A DNA stretch of 50,320 bases, taken from Helicobacteraceae bacterium (GTDB lineage Bacteria > Campylobacterota > Campylobacteria > Campylobacterales > Sulfurimonadaceae). The position numbers and the translations under genes were made by a program. The stretch lies in assembly GCA_015488775.1 (NCBI GenBank), contig WFNF01000085.1:1-50320 (forward strand). Reading direction: 5' to 3'. The notes below the pieces were generated by a model. That model saw nothing but the letters and a program-made list of their open reading frames with translations, ran no database searches and was not told where the DNA came from. Of the stretch, positions 38,635 to 50,320 are shown one piece after another; the stretch's first letter is position 1, and each line of letters opens with the position of its first letter.

Positions 38635-39081
38635 CTAATCAGTTACATCTTCACTTTTAGAAGATTTGAAAGTATCGTTGTCAACAGGGAAATAAGATAA
38701 GTCTCTAATATTTTTTTGAACTGCAATACTTGCATATATAGCCATAAGGTAACTCATAGCATAAAAACCCTTTTCACTTAACTCTAAAGTAGCATTAAAA
38801 AGACCCACAACAAGCATTGCTAAACCAAGAAAAAAAGCACTCCAAGAGATACTAAGGTATATACCTGTTATTTTTATACCCTCGTTTTTATCACGAATTG
38901 ATTTTTGCAAAGATACAGCAGAAAATAATGATAGTATTAAAACTGCAAAGTAGTAACCCTTTTCATTTAAAAGCATATCTGAATTGTAAAGACCTACTAT
39001 ATAAGCAAGTACACCTAAAATTAAAGCAGACCAAGAAGCACCAATAAAAGCACCAGTAGGTTTTTGAGATAAATTTTTCAT
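38635..39081 (-). CDS. YiaA/YiaB-type two-helix repeat membrane protein
   Basis: 148 residues from ATG 39081, chosen because AAGGA precedes it; a longer frame from 39105 has no ribosome site. Two copies of the YiaAB unit are evident: 'GASWSALILGVLAYIVGLYNSDMLLNEKGYYFAVLILSLFSAVSLQKSIRD' and 'LSISWSAFFLGLAMLVVGLFNATLELSEKGFYAMSYLMAIYASIAVQKNIRD', giving four membrane spans. The function of this family is unknown. It is divergent from the sensor kinase gene and shares the region with its inverted repeat. Confidence 0.85.
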   Translation of the reverse strand: MKNLSQKPTGAFIGASWSALILGVLAYIVGLYNSDMLLNEKGYYFAVLILSLFSAVSLQKSIRDKNEGIKITGIYLSISWSAFFLGLAMLVVGLFNATLELSEKGFYAMSYLMAIYASIAVQKNIRDLSYFPVDNDTFKSSKSEDVTD

Positions 39082-39125
39082 TTTTATAATCCTTTTTTTA
39101 AACAAGAAAATTGTAACATCTCAAT

Positions 39126-39152
39126 GTGACATTTATATTATTAAAATGTCAC
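39126..39152. promoter_or_regulatory. Inverted repeat GTGACATT-N11-AATGTCAC before the kinase gene
   Basis: Perfect arms (12 bp if the flanking AAT/T bases are counted) lie 27 bases ahead of the sensor kinase start and 45 ahead of the divergent yiaA-like gene. The same 8+11+8 design recurs at 42155. It is a candidate binding site for the response regulator encoded next door. Confidence 0.7.
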
Positions 39153-39178
39153 ATTAAAAAATTTAATGGCATTATATT

Positions 39179-40879
39179 ATGAAAATACTTAGTTTACTAT
39201 TCTTACCTTTTTTTCTTTTTGCAAATCAACTTTCATATTATATAGATGACAGCAATCTTAGTATAGAGGAGATTTCAAAACATAAATTTACAAAGATACA
39301 GAACAATCAAGTAAATTTTGGTTTTGATCAAAGAGATATCTATATAAAAGTTCTTAGTGATGATAAACCTTACTTTCTCATTGACAATACACTTATAGAT
39401 AACATAAACATATATGATGAAAATCATAAATTAATAGACAAAAGTGGTACTAAACACATCAACAATTCAAAAAGTGAAGATAAACTTTTTTACTCATACC
39501 ATTTAAACAAAAAAGAAACATATATCTTAAAAATAAACTCTATTCACGCACATACATATAGGTTTTACTTTTTTAATTTTGAAGAGTTTCAAAACTATAC
39601 TGACTATAGTAAGTTATTTCTTTTTTTCTTTTTTGGGTTTATATGTTCCATACTTATATATGCGATAATCATCTATTTGGTACTTAAAGATACCACTTAT
39701 ATATTGTACGCTTCGTTTTTAGCTAGTGTATTTATTTTTATGTTGGCTTATAGTGGGCTTGTTCCACACTACTTTTTTAAGGACAACTTAACTCTTGTAA
39801 ATATTTTTGTTTATAAATTTGACAAACTAAGCATACTTTTTGCTATGCTTTTTACATATAAATTTTTACATTTAAAATCTTATGATAAATGGATTAAAAA
39901 AGGATTTATAGTAGCTTCAATTCCACTTTTTATAAGTTTGTTATATCCAAATAACTACTTTGGTTTTTTTAGTCTAGCGGGTATGATTATCTCCATACTA
40001 TACACTTTAGTTGTTGTTATCTATAGTATATATATAAAAAACTATGGAGCTAAAATCTTCCTTTTTGGTTGGGTCTTGGTTTTACTTGGTGGTTTAGATA
40101 CATTAGTTAAACTAGGTTCACATACACAGATAAACTCATTTAACTCTTTTGGTCTTTACTACGGAATCATAGGTGTTGGGGTATTTTTCACACTTGCTTT
40201 ATCACTTAAAGTAAAAAAAGTTTATGATCAAAGAGATAATATGCGTTTAGAATACCAAAAAAAGTTGCAAGAGGATGTAGATAAAAAAACAGCTCAACTA
40301 CAAGAGGCACTAAGTGATAAAGAGCTTTACTTTAACGAACTTCAACATAGAGTAAAAAACAATCTACAGCTTTTAAACTCTTTTATAAGTTTAAGTAAAA
40401 AAGATGACAAAGATGCGATAGATAAGATAAAAAATAAAATAGAATCTCTAAGCCTACTTCATGAAGTTTTTTATACAAATAAAAAAGAGTTAGATATAAA
40501 CAAACTTTTTAAAAACTTATCATCAAGTATTATAAACACAAAAAAGATAAACTTCAACTCAAAAAGTGATGTTAAAACCATAGATATTGACAAACTAACA
40601 ACACTAACATTTATAACAAACGAACTTATAACGAACTCTGTAAAACACGCATTTCATAACGCTGAGTACCCTCAAATAGATATAAACTTCACACAAAACA
40701 AAGATAGTTTTAACTTTTTATATAAAGATAATGGATGTGGTTTAAAAGATAAGTATCTTGAAAGTAAATCTATGGGATTTAAAATCCTTTTAAGACTCTC
40801 AAAAAAACAGCTAAACGCAGATGTTGATCATGGAAATGACAATGGATTTTACTATAAAATGGAGTTTAAAAATGTCTAA
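39179..40879 (+). CDS. 7TM-DISM sensor histidine kinase (HisKA_2 type)
   Basis: 566 residues. A signal peptide (MKILSLLFLPFFLFA) is followed by a periplasmic DISM-type domain (about 18-130), seven membrane spans (about 145-345), a coiled segment (350-385), and a HisKA_2 dimerisation domain with the phospho-acceptor His390 in 'NELQHRVKNNLQLLNSFISLSKK'. The HATPase domain has 'FITNELITNSVKHAFHNAEYPQI' (N box) and 'YKDNGCGLKDKYLESKSMGFKIL' (G boxes). It probably senses a carbohydrate-like or small ligand. No ribosome site precedes the ATG. It overlaps its response regulator by eight bases. Confidence 0.92.
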   Translation: MKILSLLFLPFFLFANQLSYYIDDSNLSIEEISKHKFTKIQNNQVNFGFDQRDIYIKVLSDDKPYFLIDNTLIDNINIYDENHKLIDKSGTKHINNSKSEDKLFYSYHLNKKETYILKINSIHAHTYRFYFFNFEEFQNYTDYSKLFLFFFFGFICSILIYAIIIYLVLKDTTYILYASFLASVFIFMLAYSGLVPHYFFKDNLTLVNIFVYKFDKLSILFAMLFTYKFLHLKSYDKWIKKGFIVASIPLFISLLYPNNYFGFFSLAGMIISILYTLVVVIYSIYIKNYGAKIFLFGWVLVLLGGLDTLVKLGSHTQINSFNSFGLYYGIIGVGVFFTLALSLKVKKVYDQRDNMRLEYQKKLQEDVDKKTAQLQEALSDKELYFNELQHRVKNNLQLLNSFISLSKKDDKDAIDKIKNKIESLSLLHEVFYTNKKELDINKLFKNLSSSIINTKKINFNSKSDVKTIDIDKLTTLTFITNELITNSVKHAFHNAEYPQIDINFTQNKDSFNFLYKDNGCGLKDKYLESKSMGFKILLRLSKKQLNADVDHGNDNGFYYKMEFKNV

Positions 40880-41549
40880 AAAAATATTGATAGTTGAAGA
40901 TGATGAGATAACAGCACTAAGCATAGAAACATTTTTAGAAAATGAGGGTTATGATGTTTTACCATCTGTAAACTGTGCAGATGATGCATTAGAGATGATT
41001 AAAACTAACAACATAGCCTTAGTGCTTTCAGATATAAATATACTTGGAGCAGTAGATGGTTCACAACTAGCAAAAAAGGTATATTTAGAACATGGCATAA
41101 GAACTATCTTTTTAACCGCCTACTATAACGATGAGTTGATGCAAGAGGCTATAGAAGCTAAGGCATACACCTACCTTGTTAAACCATACAGAGAGTTTGA
41201 GTTAAAAACTGCTATTGAGTTAGCTTTTAGCACAATAAAAAGTGATGCACCCACAAAAATCAAAATAGTAAACTTTTCATCTTTTAAGTATGAAGATGAA
41301 AAGTTTTTTAAAGACAATGAAGAGATAAAATTTACAAAAAAAGAATCAAAACTTTTAGAGATTCTGATCAAAAGCATAAACAACACTGTAAGCCAAGAGG
41401 AGTTAGCATTAGAGCTATATGAAAAAGATGATAACAGTGCAAAAACAAACCTAAGAAAAATTATAAGTAGATTAAGATCTAAGTACAATATAGAGATATC
41501 TACACACAAATCACAAGGTTACTCTTTATCCAATGCTAATCCTAGTTAG
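40872..41549 (+). CDS. Response regulator, receiver plus winged-helix DNA-binding domain
   Basis: 225 residues from ATG 40872, with GGAG seven bases ahead; a longer in-frame start at 40821 lies inside the kinase gene and is rejected. The receiver shows 'ILIVEDDE', the phospho-acceptor Asp54 in 'ALVLSDINI', Thr82 and Lys104 in 'YLVKPYREFE'. The C-terminal OmpR-like winged helix ('FTKKESKLLEILIKSINNTVSQEELALELYEKDD...LRKIISRLRSKY') binds DNA. The sites at 39126 and 42155 are likely targets. Confidence 0.92.
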   Translation: MSKKILIVEDDEITALSIETFLENEGYDVLPSVNCADDALEMIKTNNIALVLSDINILGAVDGSQLAKKVYLEHGIRTIFLTAYYNDELMQEAIEAKAYTYLVKPYREFELKTAIELAFSTIKSDAPTKIKIVNFSSFKYEDEKFFKDNEEIKFTKKESKLLEILIKSINNTVSQEELALELYEKDDNSAKTNLRKIISRLRSKYNIEISTHKSQGYSLSNANPS

Positions 41550-41612
41550 AAGTTCATATAATTTACATTATTCATTTGTAAAGTTAATTGTATCTAAAGG
41601 TCATCTCTATAA

Positions 41613-42014
41613 CTAAAAACCTAGCCCTATCTCTGCTACGACCTTGATATCTCCTGTTTTAGTATCTGCAAAAAGCCCAAATGAGCCATTTAACCCCATA
41701 GCCATAGTTATAACCTCAACACCTGCATAATTATGTTTTTTCTCAAAGTAAGTGTAATCAGAAGTTTGAATAAAGTAAGATGCAACAACTCTAGTTGTAC
41801 CATAAAAGCCCATAGCTCCTTTAGCTACTCCACAACCAAAACGAACTTTTTGAGCAGCAATACCTAGTTGCAAACTACCCGTAAGACAGGTACTAGAATC
41901 TATAATTCCAGATTCTATAGCAACAATTTGTGAGTTTGAATATTTTATGTTTATAATTGGTTCTTCAGCACTTAGAAAAGCACTAAAAAGCAATAAAGCA
42001 AGTATAGTTTTCAT
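41613..42014 (-). CDS. Small secreted protein of unknown function
   Basis: 133 residues with a signal peptide (MKTILALLLFSAFLSA). The mature part is short, has Cys residues (TCLTG, FGCGV) that may form a disulfide, and ends 'VVAEIGLGF', with a barrel-like alternation. It contains Gly-rich stretches ('GLNGSFGLFADTKTGDIKVVAEIG'). GAGGA precedes the ATG. No family is recognised. It is divergent from the LRR protein gene, and a mobile-element insertion lies just upstream of it. Confidence 0.65.
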   Translation of the reverse strand: MKTILALLLFSAFLSAEEPIINIKYSNSQIVAIESGIIDSSTCLTGSLQLGIAAQKVRFGCGVAKGAMGFYGTTRVVASYFIQTSDYTYFEKKHNYAGVEVITMAMGLNGSFGLFADTKTGDIKVVAEIGLGF

Positions 42015-42047
42015 TTTAAATCCTCGAATTAATCATGGAAAAATTAT

Positions 42048-42138
42048 CCCAAATTATGCAGTAGCGAACAATAAATAGCGTCTATGCTTGTGTACAATGA
42101 TAGATGCAATCTTCAAGTTTTCTACTGCATAATTTGGG
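42048..42138. mobile_element. 91-bp MITE-like element with 17-bp terminal inverted repeats
   Basis: The ends CCCAAATTATGCAGTAG and CTACTGCATAATTTGGG are perfect inverses, flanked by the 5-bp direct repeat ATTAT (42043-42047 and 42139-42143), a target-site duplication. Inside is a second hairpin, GCGTCTAT / ATAGATGC (42078-42107, one G-U pair) around TTGT-GT-ACAA. It has no coding capacity. A truncated copy is at 31840. Confidence 0.85.
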
Positions 42139-42154
42139 ATTATAGGCTAGTTAC

Positions 42155-42181
42155 GTGACATTTTTATATTTTTAATGTCAC
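42155..42181. promoter_or_regulatory. Second copy of GTGACATT-N11-AATGTCAC
   Basis: Same 8+11+8 inverted repeat as at 39126, with a different spacer. It sits 42 bases upstream of the -10 box for the LRR-protein gene, a position fit for activation. The MITE duplication ends 12 bases to its left. Confidence 0.7.
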
Positions 42182-42258: not shown

Positions 42259-44457
42259 TTGCAAAATTACAACAAAGTACTTGAATATTTTAAAGGTATG
42301 GTAACAAGGTTAGCTTCATTAGATGAATCATCACAAATAAACTATGAAGAGTATATGGATTATATAGAGGTGGTTTTTAAGGCTCAAGCTTTTGAGATAG
42401 CACTAGAGATGTACATACTTTTAGAAGACAATATATCAAATACTAAGTATGCTGCACAGTGTCATAACAACATAGGTATTTGCCATGTGGCATTAGGACA
42501 TCCTAAAAAAGATATTTTTAATAGCTTTATGAGAGCAGTTAAACTTGATAGCGATGAAGTTGAGTATGCAAGTAACCTTGCACTTTCTACTCAAGATGAT
42601 TTAGACCCAAGTTACTACACTTGCAGTAAAAGAGAGACAAAAAGTAAAGCAAAACCTGTTATAGATGCAACACTAAGAGCAATACGACTAAGTGCTAAAC
42701 GTATTGAAGTTGATGCAAAAGAGATAGATAGAGATGATTTATCTCCTGAACTTTATGATAGAGTTACACATATAGACTTGTCATACAAAAATTTAGAAGA
42801 GTTACCTTTTTGGCTTGAAAAGTTGGTTAACCTAATCTCCTTAGATATATCTCACAATAAAATCTCTAAAGATGCAAAGTTTAAATATCTTTCTAAAAAC
42901 CTAAGATACTTAAACATATCTCACAATGAGATAAAAAGAATAGGTACAGATTTTTTAGGCTATGAAAATTTAGAGTACTTAGATATAAGTCATAACTCTC
43001 TAATAGATATACCTCTACTACTTCAGACACATGAGCTAATCTATTTGGACTTAAGCAACAACAAACTAGATAAACTAAAAAACGGTTTTATAGATGATAT
43101 CCCAAATTTAAAGTACTTTAACATAAGCAACAATAAACTAAAAACATTACCTAAAGCTATGCTAGATAAAAACCTTATGGATACAGATACCTATAAAGAT
43201 GATTATAAAGATACATATAAAAACTATATTTTAAAACAATCTATTTCTGATCAAGAGATTAGCTTTGAAGATAAATCTGGATTTGATATTATTTCCCATT
43301 TTGAGGGGTCTGATCTTTATGACTTTGAGAGATGTCATGACTTTCAACTTAGTAGTGATACTAGTGAGTTTTTAGATTATTGGTTAAGTGAAAAGCCAAC
43401 AGAGAAAGAAAAAAAATCATTTAAAGTTTTTGCACAAACTGGTGATGGTGGGTACTTTGCTTATTGGAAATATAATTACTTAGTTTTAGATCCTCCAATA
43501 GTTTACTTTGGTAGTGATGGGGCTTACAACATGATTGCAGCAAATGAGGATGACTTAACATGTTTACTTGCAACAGGACAACGTATGGACGCAGAAAATT
43601 CTGATGAAGAGGTATGGAAAAGTTCATACTGGGACTCACATATTGATGATATACTAGAAGATGGTGAGTATGATACTTTTGATGATGTAAAAAAAGCTTT
43701 TTATGATGATATAGATGAGTATGCTAAACTTGTAAAAACAAAGTACAAACTACAAGATAGCAAAGTTTATATAGAAAATATGAAAAGACATCCTAGTTTT
43801 AACAAATGGGTTGAAACAAGAGAACTTGTTTTTAGTGCACAGCCTACATCATATAACAAAGCATTTACAGGTATATCTTCTACAACCCAAGTACTTTTAG
43901 GAATACTGGAAAGTTGGGGAGATTCTAATAAAGTTTATAGTTTGTATGATTTTCATGATATGGAAGTAGTTGGCTCTTTTGGTAAGTCTGATTGTGTTGA
44001 GGAATGGTTTAAAGATGACTTTTATGATAAGGGTAATGACTTTTTGGAGTTCGCTATAAATAGAGCTGGTGATTCTTATGCTTTATGGGTGTATCCTGAG
44101 CTAAAAGGGGAACCAGCAGTTGTTTTTTTAGATGGTGATGGAGATGTTGAACTTTTAGCTCCTAGTATGGGCGAGTTTTTAGCTTTACTTACAAATGAAG
44201 ATGTTCTTCTAGGTAATGTTGAAGATGATGTTCTGTACTGGTATGAGTTATATACTTGTCAGTATGATGATATTGTAGAGGAAAATGAAGAGTTTGAAGA
44301 TACTGATGAAGTAGAAGATGCTATAAAAAAAGAGATAAAAACACTAAATGCTAAAGTCAAAAAAGCATACAATTATCCAGAGCTATTAAACATTATAAAA
44401 AACTATAATCGCCATCCAGATTTTAAAAAGTGGTTTGATCAGAATGTTAATTATTAG
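42259..44457 (+). CDS. TPR-like / leucine-rich repeat / double SUKH-like protein
   Basis: 732 residues, start TTG at 42259; the next Met (residue 14) has no usable ribosome site. No signal peptide. Residues 1-125 look like TPR-type helices. Residues 168-298 hold about five to six leucine-rich repeats (LxxLDISHNKI, LRYLNISHNEI, LEYLDISHNSL, LIYLDLSNNKL, LKYFNISNNKL). Two SMI1/KNR4 (SUKH)-like units follow: about 341-440 ('FAQTGDGGYFAYW', 'PPIVYFGSDGAYNMIA') and 560-650 ('FAINRAGDSYALW', 'PAVVFLDGDGDVELLA'), each ending with an 'RHPxFxKW' tail. The protein is very acidic. SUKH domains often serve in toxin immunity, but here they may be scaffolding. Confidence 0.75.
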   Translation: MQNYNKVLEYFKGMVTRLASLDESSQINYEEYMDYIEVVFKAQAFEIALEMYILLEDNISNTKYAAQCHNNIGICHVALGHPKKDIFNSFMRAVKLDSDEVEYASNLALSTQDDLDPSYYTCSKRETKSKAKPVIDATLRAIRLSAKRIEVDAKEIDRDDLSPELYDRVTHIDLSYKNLEELPFWLEKLVNLISLDISHNKISKDAKFKYLSKNLRYLNISHNEIKRIGTDFLGYENLEYLDISHNSLIDIPLLLQTHELIYLDLSNNKLDKLKNGFIDDIPNLKYFNISNNKLKTLPKAMLDKNLMDTDTYKDDYKDTYKNYILKQSISDQEISFEDKSGFDIISHFEGSDLYDFERCHDFQLSSDTSEFLDYWLSEKPTEKEKKSFKVFAQTGDGGYFAYWKYNYLVLDPPIVYFGSDGAYNMIAANEDDLTCLLATGQRMDAENSDEEVWKSSYWDSHIDDILEDGEYDTFDDVKKAFYDDIDEYAKLVKTKYKLQDSKVYIENMKRHPSFNKWVETRELVFSAQPTSYNKAFTGISSTTQVLLGILESWGDSNKVYSLYDFHDMEVVGSFGKSDCVEEWFKDDFYDKGNDFLEFAINRAGDSYALWVYPELKGEPAVVFLDGDGDVELLAPSMGEFLALLTNEDVLLGNVEDDVLYWYELYTCQYDDIVEENEEFEDTDEVEDAIKKEIKTLNAKVKKAYNYPELLNIIKNYNRHPDFKKWFDQNVNY

Positions 44458-48570: not shown

Positions 48571-48806
48571 TGTCCCCATATGTAAAGACCAATTCAAAAT
48601 TTCTTTTTATTCCACCTCTTATGCTACCCCAAGTAACACATTTTTAGCATCAAAGCATTTATTGTTAGCACCTTTGTAATAAGCTTCATCAGGTGTTAAA
48701 TAATCCAGTGATGAATGCAATCTTTCTGTATTGTAAGTATTGATATATTCTTTAATACCTCTTATAGCCTCCTTAATATTTGAGTAAGATGATGGATAAA
48801 CATTAT
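48571..48806 (-). mobile_element. IS3-family remnant, transposase C-terminal end
   Basis: The last about 62 codons (48619-48806) encode 'YPSSYSNIKEAIRGIKEYINTYNTERLHSSLDYLTPDEAYY', the typical end of IS3-family OrfB integrases. The DDE core is absent. TGTCCCC at 48571 may be the element's terminal end. The frame continues without a stop into an unrelated transposase start on the right. Confidence 0.7.
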
Positions 48807-49053
48807 CATATTTAAGACTATAGTAGACATCTTTTTTGAAACTATTATCACTTTGCTTCATAAAGGTTGTAATCTTTTTACTCATTACAAGCATATATAC
48901 AAAGTGCAGTACCACTAGGTGTACTGCAACTCCCTCTTTTTTTGTGAAGTTACTTTTATTTAAAATATCTTTAATATTTATTAGCTGTATTGTTTTATAG
49001 ATTGGGTTTTTTAATTTGTCATTTAGTATATTTATCAGTTGTTCTGCAATCAT
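48807..49053 (-). pseudogene. Transposase N-terminal remnant fused in frame to the IS3 end
   Basis: ATG at 49053 begins about 82 residues (MIAEQLINILNDKLKNPIYK..., 'FTKKEGVAVHLVVLHFVYMLVMSKKITTFMKQSDNSFKKDVYY') resembling the N-terminus of an IS4-like DDE transposase, from memory of the pattern only. It then joins the IS3 C-terminus in frame, making a 144-residue hybrid. Neither part can be a working transposase. The junction near 48807 is estimated from the protein pattern. Confidence 0.6.
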
Positions 49054-49192
49054 TCTTAAACTCTTTTTGAAGTGATTTATAACTAAAATTACGCCAATTC
49101 AAGAAATAAGTGCAATTTTTTAAAAGTCAGTTGAAAGAGAGGATTAAAGGTAAATCTGCTATTCTAAATTCAACCAAAAACAAAGAAGAAGC

Positions 49193-50068
49193 ATGAAATA
49201 TAAACAATTAACCATCACGAAACGATACCAACTTTTAGCTTTAAAAAAGCTAGGATACAATCAAAAAGAGATAGCAGAAGAGATAGGTGTTCACCCCTCA
49301 ACAATTTGTAGAGAGTTGAAACATCATGATGTTAAAGTACATGAGTATAATACAGAGATGGCACAGGTATAATCTACTCAAAAACATAAACAAAAAAAGA
49401 AAAGAAATTCTATTACAAAAGTTATTGAAAAATATATTAGAGTCAAACTCAAAGAGGAATGGTCTCCAGAACAGATATCTGGACGACTAAAGCTTGATAA
49501 AAATATTTCAATTTCACATGAAACTATACACCAATATATATACAAGAATAAATCCAATGGTGGATTACTCTATAAAAAGCTACACCATAAAAATAAGAAG
49601 TATCATAATCGTAGTAATAATTATCAATCAAGAGGCACTATTATAGGGCGTGTAATGATAGATAAACTACCTAAAATTGTAGAAGAGAAATCTCGTATCG
49701 GAGATTGGGAAATTGATACTGTAGTGGGTAAAGATCATAAAGGATTTTTAGTTACTGTCGTTGATCGTAAATCTAAATTTACAATCATTAAAGCAACACT
49801 AACTAAACATGCTGAAGTAGTCACACAAGCTCTTATTGAGATGCTCACACCAATGCAAAATATCACTCATACTATTACAAGTGATAATGGGAAAGAGTTT
49901 GCTTATCATAAGCAGATATCTGATACATTAAACACAAGTTTTTACTTTGCGAATCCATATCACTCTTGGAAGAGAGGATTAAATGAGCACACAAATGGAT
50001 TGATTAGACAATATTTACCTAAGAAATCAGAGTTTTTAAATATCTCAAAGGAAGAATTCAAACTGTAA
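49193..50068 (+). pseudogene. IS30-family transposase, broken by a nonsense codon and 3' truncation
   Basis: ATG 49193 opens an HTH domain ('YKQLTITKRYQLLALKKLGYNQKEIAEEIGVHPSTICRELKHH'), but an in-frame TAA at 49370-49372 stops it after 59 codons. The same frame then continues without another stop: 'KEEWSPEQISGRLKLD', 'SRIGDWEIDTVVGKDHKG', 'TITSDNGKEFAYHKQI', 'YHSWKRGLNEHTNGLIRQYLPK', containing the DDE motif region. It ends at 'FLNISKEEFKL', where IS30 transposases normally have about 50 more residues (the 'NNRPRK.LGY.TP' part). Both changes mark it as dead. Confidence 0.88.
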
Positions 50069-50200: not shown

Positions 50201-50320
50201 GAACTAGGCAGCGACCTACTTTCACACACCTGCAAGGTGCAATATCATCAGCGATGAGAGGCTTAGCTTCTGGGTTCGAAATGGGACCAGGCGTTTCCCT
50301 CTCTCTATAGCCACCTAGAC
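50201..50320 (-). rRNA. rrf: 5S ribosomal RNA
   Basis: The reverse complement reads GTCTAGGTGGCTATAGAGAG then 'GGAAACGCCTGGTCCCATTTCGAACCCAGAAGC' broken as expected for 5S loops (CCCAT-CGAACCC-GAAGCTAAG) and 'GTAGGTCGCTGCCTAG' at the 3' end. The ends pair (CTAGG/CCTAG) as helix I. About 120 bases fit; the 5' end lies at or just beyond the window edge. The rRNA operon therefore lies to the right, read leftwards. Confidence 0.95.

Follow-up and report, generated by a model that had tools for sequence, protein, structure and literature searches.

The palindrome and its neighbors

The window analyzed here is the whole of contig C85, a stretch of 50,320 nucleotides, in an assembly of 2,700,218 bases and 170 contigs that is 95% complete and that we scanned for further sites. 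Its central feature is a 27-base palindrome, GTGACATT-N11-AATGTCAC, present in two exact copies, each lying in a divergent intergenic region (Table 1). The original prediction placed one copy upstream of a sensor kinase and response regulator pair and the other upstream of a gene for a leucine-rich repeat (LRR) protein. These placements are true but incomplete, as each copy is also upstream of a minus-strand gene that had been overlooked, one encoding a YiaA-like membrane protein and the other a secreted protein of 133 residues.

Table 1. Features at the two palindrome copies of the window and at the two further sites (window positions unless another contig or record is named)
Feature	Position	Strand	Remarks
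YiaA/YiaB-like inner membrane protein	38635..39081	-	PF05360 twice; NCBIfam YiaA well above cut-off
-10 hexamer TACAAT of yiaA-like gene	39110..39115	-	exactly 10 bp from operator 1; 5/6
Predicted operator, copy 1, GTGACATT-N11-AATGTCAC	39126..39152	.	between yiaA-like (-) and kinase (+) genes
Sensor histidine kinase	39179..40879	+	7TMR-DISMED2, 7TMR-DISM_7TM and HisKA_2/HWE-type; HisKA_2 above cut-off
OmpR/PhoB-type response regulator, candidate binder	40872..41549	+	Response_reg and Trans_reg_C; overlaps kinase end
133-aa protein, signal peptide, orphan family	41613..42014	-	two copies in genome, 71% identical
MITE-like insertion	42048..42138	.	91 bp, internally deleted form of 163-bp element; terminal inverted repeats CCCAAATTATGCAGTAG
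-10 hexamer TATAAT of 133-aa gene	42139..42144	-	exactly 10 bp from operator 2; 6/6
Predicted operator, copy 2, GTGACATT-N11-AATGTCAC	42155..42181	.	between 133-aa (-) and LRR (+) genes
732-aa LRR protein, SMI1/KNR4(SUKH)-like C-terminal half	42259..44457	+	divergent neighbor of operator 2
-10 hexamer TATACT of 133-aa paralogue	C18		10 bp from palindrome; 5/6
-10 hexamer TATACT of HMG-CoA reductase	C52		10 bp from N10 palindrome; 5/6
C52 operon	L061:388-8943		HMG-CoA reductase, UbiA-type prenyltransferase, PEP-synthase-like, DUF3419, dolichol-kinase-like, acyl-CoA-ligase-like

The LRR protein has strong leucine-rich repeats and a match to SMI1/KNR4 that falls below threshold (16.6 bits versus a cut-off of 25.4). 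It is similar to an SMI1/KNR4 protein in another (plasmid) record, and by eye two SUKH-like segments that resemble each other can be made out in its C-terminal half. It could be an immunity-type protein. Its gene is tied to the regulon described below by adjacency alone, and membership is not supported.

Rarity of the palindrome

The claim that the exact repeat occurs twice in the non-coding DNA checked holds, and a search of the whole window at up to three mismatches returned no third copy; 100 dinucleotide-shuffled windows contained none. The whole-genome scan for the 8-11-8 motif that the original prediction called for likewise shows it to be rare, with three perfect N11 copies, the third at C18:1213-1239. 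There are no one-mismatch copies genome-wide. At up to three mismatches the total is 13 places (the three perfect ones included) versus 10 for a reversed control pattern, and matches with two or three mismatches are no commoner than the control. When other spacers were allowed, one more site with both 8-bp arms intact appeared, an N10 palindrome at C52:12988-13013. A weak match at C86:658 was dropped because it falls within a nadD-like gene.

A scan of 150 further genomes from the family found no palindrome at up to one mismatch, and a literature search on the motif letters gave nothing relevant among the papers listed. Scanning public genomes for TGTGACATT-N11-AATGTCACA returned 14 contigs from other phyla; several of these contain terminator-like or longer unrelated palindromes, and the public scan is therefore no help in judging conservation. 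Three acidobacterial-type contigs (L043, L044, and L048) carry the TGTGACATT/AATGTCACA arms within a longer non-coding palindrome, GGTGGTTTGTGACATT-N11-AATGTCACAAACCACC or a close variant, and three Mucilaginibacter contigs have another longer palindrome of such kind in common. Across the four sites of the genome under study, both arms are invariant and the loop and flanks vary. Judged by its sequence, the palindrome is a real, rare, and well-defined site of regulatory type, at which binding is predicted.

A promoter element at fixed distance

At all four sites a -10-like hexamer lies exactly 10 bp from the palindrome, and on one side only, in a set that is small (n = 4) and includes the promoters of two genes that are paralogues. 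On the opposite sides, the hexamers at the same offset are TTAATG facing the kinase gene (2/6), TTTATG facing the LRR gene (3/6), TTTAGT facing a c-type cytochrome gene on C18 (4/6), and GCTTAT on the far side of the C52 site (3/6). A pattern composed of the palindrome, 10 bp, and TAnnnT retrieves exactly the three N11 sites in the right orientation, with no match for the reversed control, and the N10 version with TAnnnT at 10 bp retrieves the C52 site exactly, with one control match within three mismatches. In randomizations that covered offsets 0-40 and picked the better side each time, the observed score was equaled by 20 of 20,000 Markov flank sets and by 1 of 20,000 AT-rich genomic flank sets.

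This arrangement recalls that of PhoB. In Escherichia coli, the -10 follows PhoB boxes at a distance of 10 bp (PMC1906773), and the boxes stand in for the -35 (PMC4971064). In all four cases here, too, 10 bp separate the end of the box from a downstream sigma70 -10 hexamer of the form TAnnnT, and the box occupies the place of a -35. The likeness does not extend to the box itself, as pho boxes are tandem direct repeats with an 11-bp period, whereas the present sites consist of inverted 8-bp arms 10-11 bp apart (8-11-8 or 8-10-8). Because the 10-bp spacing is constant even at the N10 site, it points to an activator that would contact RNA polymerase rather than to a repressor.

Probable target genes

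The polarity of the -10 hexamers directs attention to the genes on their side of each palindrome. The yiaA-like gene starts 44 bp from its palindrome, the C18 paralogue of the 133-aa gene 42 bp, and the 133-aa gene of the window 140 bp. The C18 paralogue (L001:1282-1683) matches the gene that stands opposite the LRR gene at operator 2, a clue that the targets are those of the other strand. The C52 site precedes a gene, read from L061:8943, for HMG-CoA reductase (PF00368, E 4.6e-106); the start of this gene is uncertain because no ATG, GTG, or TTG lies near the Shine-Dalgarno sequence. Taken together, the palindrome most likely serves the yiaA-like gene, the 133-aa gene, its paralogue, and the HMG-CoA-reductase operon, a set predicted from sequence features that differs from the genes originally proposed.

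Several of these genes are confined in distribution. The double-domain yiaA-like gene is present in 1 of 200 genomes of the family and in none of the others, and was possibly acquired. The search among relatives gave no close orthologue for the 133-aa protein, its family being present in this genome only, and a search of viral contigs and plasmids gave no relative of it; a few matches at E ~5e-4 fall inside long open reading frames and were judged to be due to chance. Its predicted structure (pLDDT 42) is not usable. For the regulator, kinase, YiaA-like, and LRR proteins, too, no close orthologues were found among relatives, and the YiaA-like, 133-aa, and regulator/kinase genes concerned seem to be private to this lineage. 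Within the C52 operon, a membrane protein resembles dolichol kinases in our reading and has an acetyltransferase-like end, with no Pfam family above cut-off, and the operon also encodes a DUF3419 protein, DUF3419 being the family to which the betaine-lipid enzyme BtaA belongs. The targets look to be related to the envelope or to lipids.

A mobile element between promoter and gene

The long start distance of the 133-aa gene in the window is explained by insertion of a miniature inverted-repeat transposable element (MITE). The element lies between operator 2 with its -10 hexamer and the gene, flanked by two copies of its 5-bp target, ATTAT (42043-42047 and 42139-42143), and subtraction of the MITE and one ATTAT copy reduces the distance from palindrome to start codon to 44 bp. 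Insertion took place directly after the -10 hexamer, which was re-created by the target duplication, so the promoter is expected to survive, with a transcript that would now start with MITE sequence. In its terminal inverted repeats, 5-bp duplications, and multiplicity the element resembles other MITEs; the family occupies roughly 40 places in the genome (counted from the match list), and its target duplications are A/T-rich. Six of the ten copies that were read measure 151-163 bp and four, which are internally deleted forms, 90-97 bp; besides the one in the window, members of the family lie in L063-L071. The MITE is not the 27-bp repeat and is merely inserted between the promoter of the latter and its gene. 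Elsewhere in the window, at the end of the contig, transposase-like fragments (48619-50068 and 50203-50318) adjoin a 5S rRNA gene.

The candidate binder

The regulator gene in the window encodes a receiver (PF00072, E 1.5e-19) and a winged helix (PF00486, E 2.3e-11), both above cut-off, and shares an operon with the histidine kinase, placing it in the OmpR/PhoB family. It is not PhoB itself, scoring 60.7 bits against the PhoB equivalog TIGR02154 (cut-off 296.2), and it scores 65.7 bits against the heavy-metal regulator model (cut-off 279.2). Nine regulator paralogues are among the matches listed, all on contigs other than those of the sites. In 397 genomes of the phylum, homologues of the kinase are only ~30% identical, and none has the palindrome nearby.

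The proposal that the regulator acts through the repeat fares better than the targets assigned to it. The kinase/regulator operon lies between two of the four sites, and when four sites were placed at random, any of 60 regulator operons was so bracketed in 16 of 200,000 trials. This position makes the regulator the best candidate binder, although the LRR gene as its target is unsupported. We infer that the regulator is likely an activator that binds the palindrome. Autoregulation of the kinase operon is only possible, as a -10 hexamer at the 10-bp offset and a visible Shine-Dalgarno sequence are both missing on the kinase side.

With moderate confidence, we therefore favor the palindrome as the operator of a small private regulon, most likely activated by the regulator that the two window copies flank. 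A dimeric (or tetrameric) activator would bind the TGTGACATT and AATGTCACA arms, which are spaced by about two turns of the helix, and 10 bp would separate the nearer arm from the -10 hexamer downstream. Once bound, it would replace the -35 and recruit sigma70 RNA polymerase in the manner of PhoB at pho boxes, and so serve the promoters of the yiaA-like gene, the two secreted-protein genes, and the reductase operon. The activator would be the OmpR/PhoB-type regulator, phosphorylated, presumably upon a signal, by the adjacent 7TMR-DISM/HisKA_2 kinase.

Alternative readings

A different regulator, encoded elsewhere, may bind the palindrome as a repressor over the -35 or as an activator of another family, with the kinase pair a neighbor or even a target; we consider this rather unlikely. 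Long palindromes with half-sites about two turns apart are more typical of ribbon-helix-helix (NikR), HrcA-, BirA-, and TetR-type regulators than of OmpR-type ones, and a repressor, too, could act from a position of about -23 to -49. NikR was a candidate because it, too, has long palindromic operators, of ~27 bp with half-sites two turns apart, but PF08753 has no match in this genome (95% complete), with 5 of 14 control genomes positive, and the targets here are not nickel genes. The bracketing of the kinase/regulator operon by two of the four sites also argues against an outside regulator, as does the DNA read around the sites, in which the response regulator of the window is the only one near them; the nearest on C18 is a CRP/FNR-type gene ~10 kb away.

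Still less probable is the three-gene unit first proposed, in which the regulator, bound at the palindrome, would control its own kinase operon and also drive expression of the LRR gene. The kinase and LRR genes do adjoin the copies, and the kinase side offers a 5/6 hexamer, TTTAAT, at 9 bp, as well as a 9/12 promoter match, TTGTAA-17-TATATT, that overlaps operator 1 on the kinase strand, although such matches are no commoner than chance. The weak hexamers at the 10-bp offset on the kinase and LRR sides speak against the unit, however, as do the lack of a visible Shine-Dalgarno sequence for the kinase and the recurrence of the palindrome at two unlinked loci with neither an LRR nor a kinase gene. 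The start of the kinase gene is 26 bp from its palindrome and that of the LRR gene 77 bp, and with the -10 hexamers facing the opposite genes, control of the LRR gene by the regulator is not supported.

It is very improbable that the repeat works as a hairpin, in RNA or at a transposon end (a terminator, MITE end, or leader), rather than as a DNA operator: single strands of all four sites do fold (-8.8 to -12.4 kcal/mol), the genome has a MITE family with one copy beside operator 2, and some unrelated genomes hold the same arms inside terminator-like palindromes, but the palindrome is upstream of the -10 at all four sites and hence would not be transcribed on the target strand, no T-run follows it, no Rfam family matches it, its arms are invariant while loop and flanks vary, and the MITE ends are unrelated to it in sequence.

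Relation to known systems and significance

The favored regulon, with the window's regulator as its activator, shares features with two well-studied members of the OmpR family. The pho-box half-site has a TGTCA core, as is the case here, and both systems have an OmpR/PhoB-type regulator beside a histidine kinase, although the kinase here is of the 7TMR-DISM/HisKA_2 (HWE-like) type and not PhoR-type. CusR also belongs to the OmpR family. In E. coli and Pseudomonas, it binds a perfect palindrome that lies next to its own genes, between divergent ones; the E. coli site shares the TGACA/TGTCA core of the present one, and the regulon is very small (PMC11195947). Unlike the sites described here, with 11 bp between 8-bp arms, the CusR halves are close together (TGACAAnnTTGTCA), and no copper genes are near the present sites. 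What speaks against an OmpR-type binder is that members of this family usually recognize direct repeats in head-to-tail order; one member that was tested bound less well once a repeat was inverted (PMC6222199).

We tentatively suggest, as a possibility somewhat short of even, that an OmpR/PhoB-type regulator with a 7TMR-DISM/HisKA_2 kinase reads an 8-11-8 palindrome, tolerating 8-10-8, in place of tandem repeats; it would keep the 10-bp geometry of PhoB and control a lineage-specific envelope or lipid regulon comprising the YiaA-like protein, two orphan secreted proteins, and an operon of mevalonate-pathway type. As a small two-component regulon with the promoter geometry of PhoB, the system is of an ordinary kind; its palindromic box is unusual.

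From sequence alone, a small but complete regulon with exact promoter geometry can be delineated. An orphan family of secreted proteins and a YiaA-like protein are given probable common control, linked to a lipid-type operon with HMG-CoA reductase, and the polarity of the -10 hexamers shifts the regulated genes to the opposite strand, correcting the assignment of targets. If the OmpR-type regulator is confirmed as the binder, the palindrome would be an operator of unusual design for the most abundant family of response regulators.
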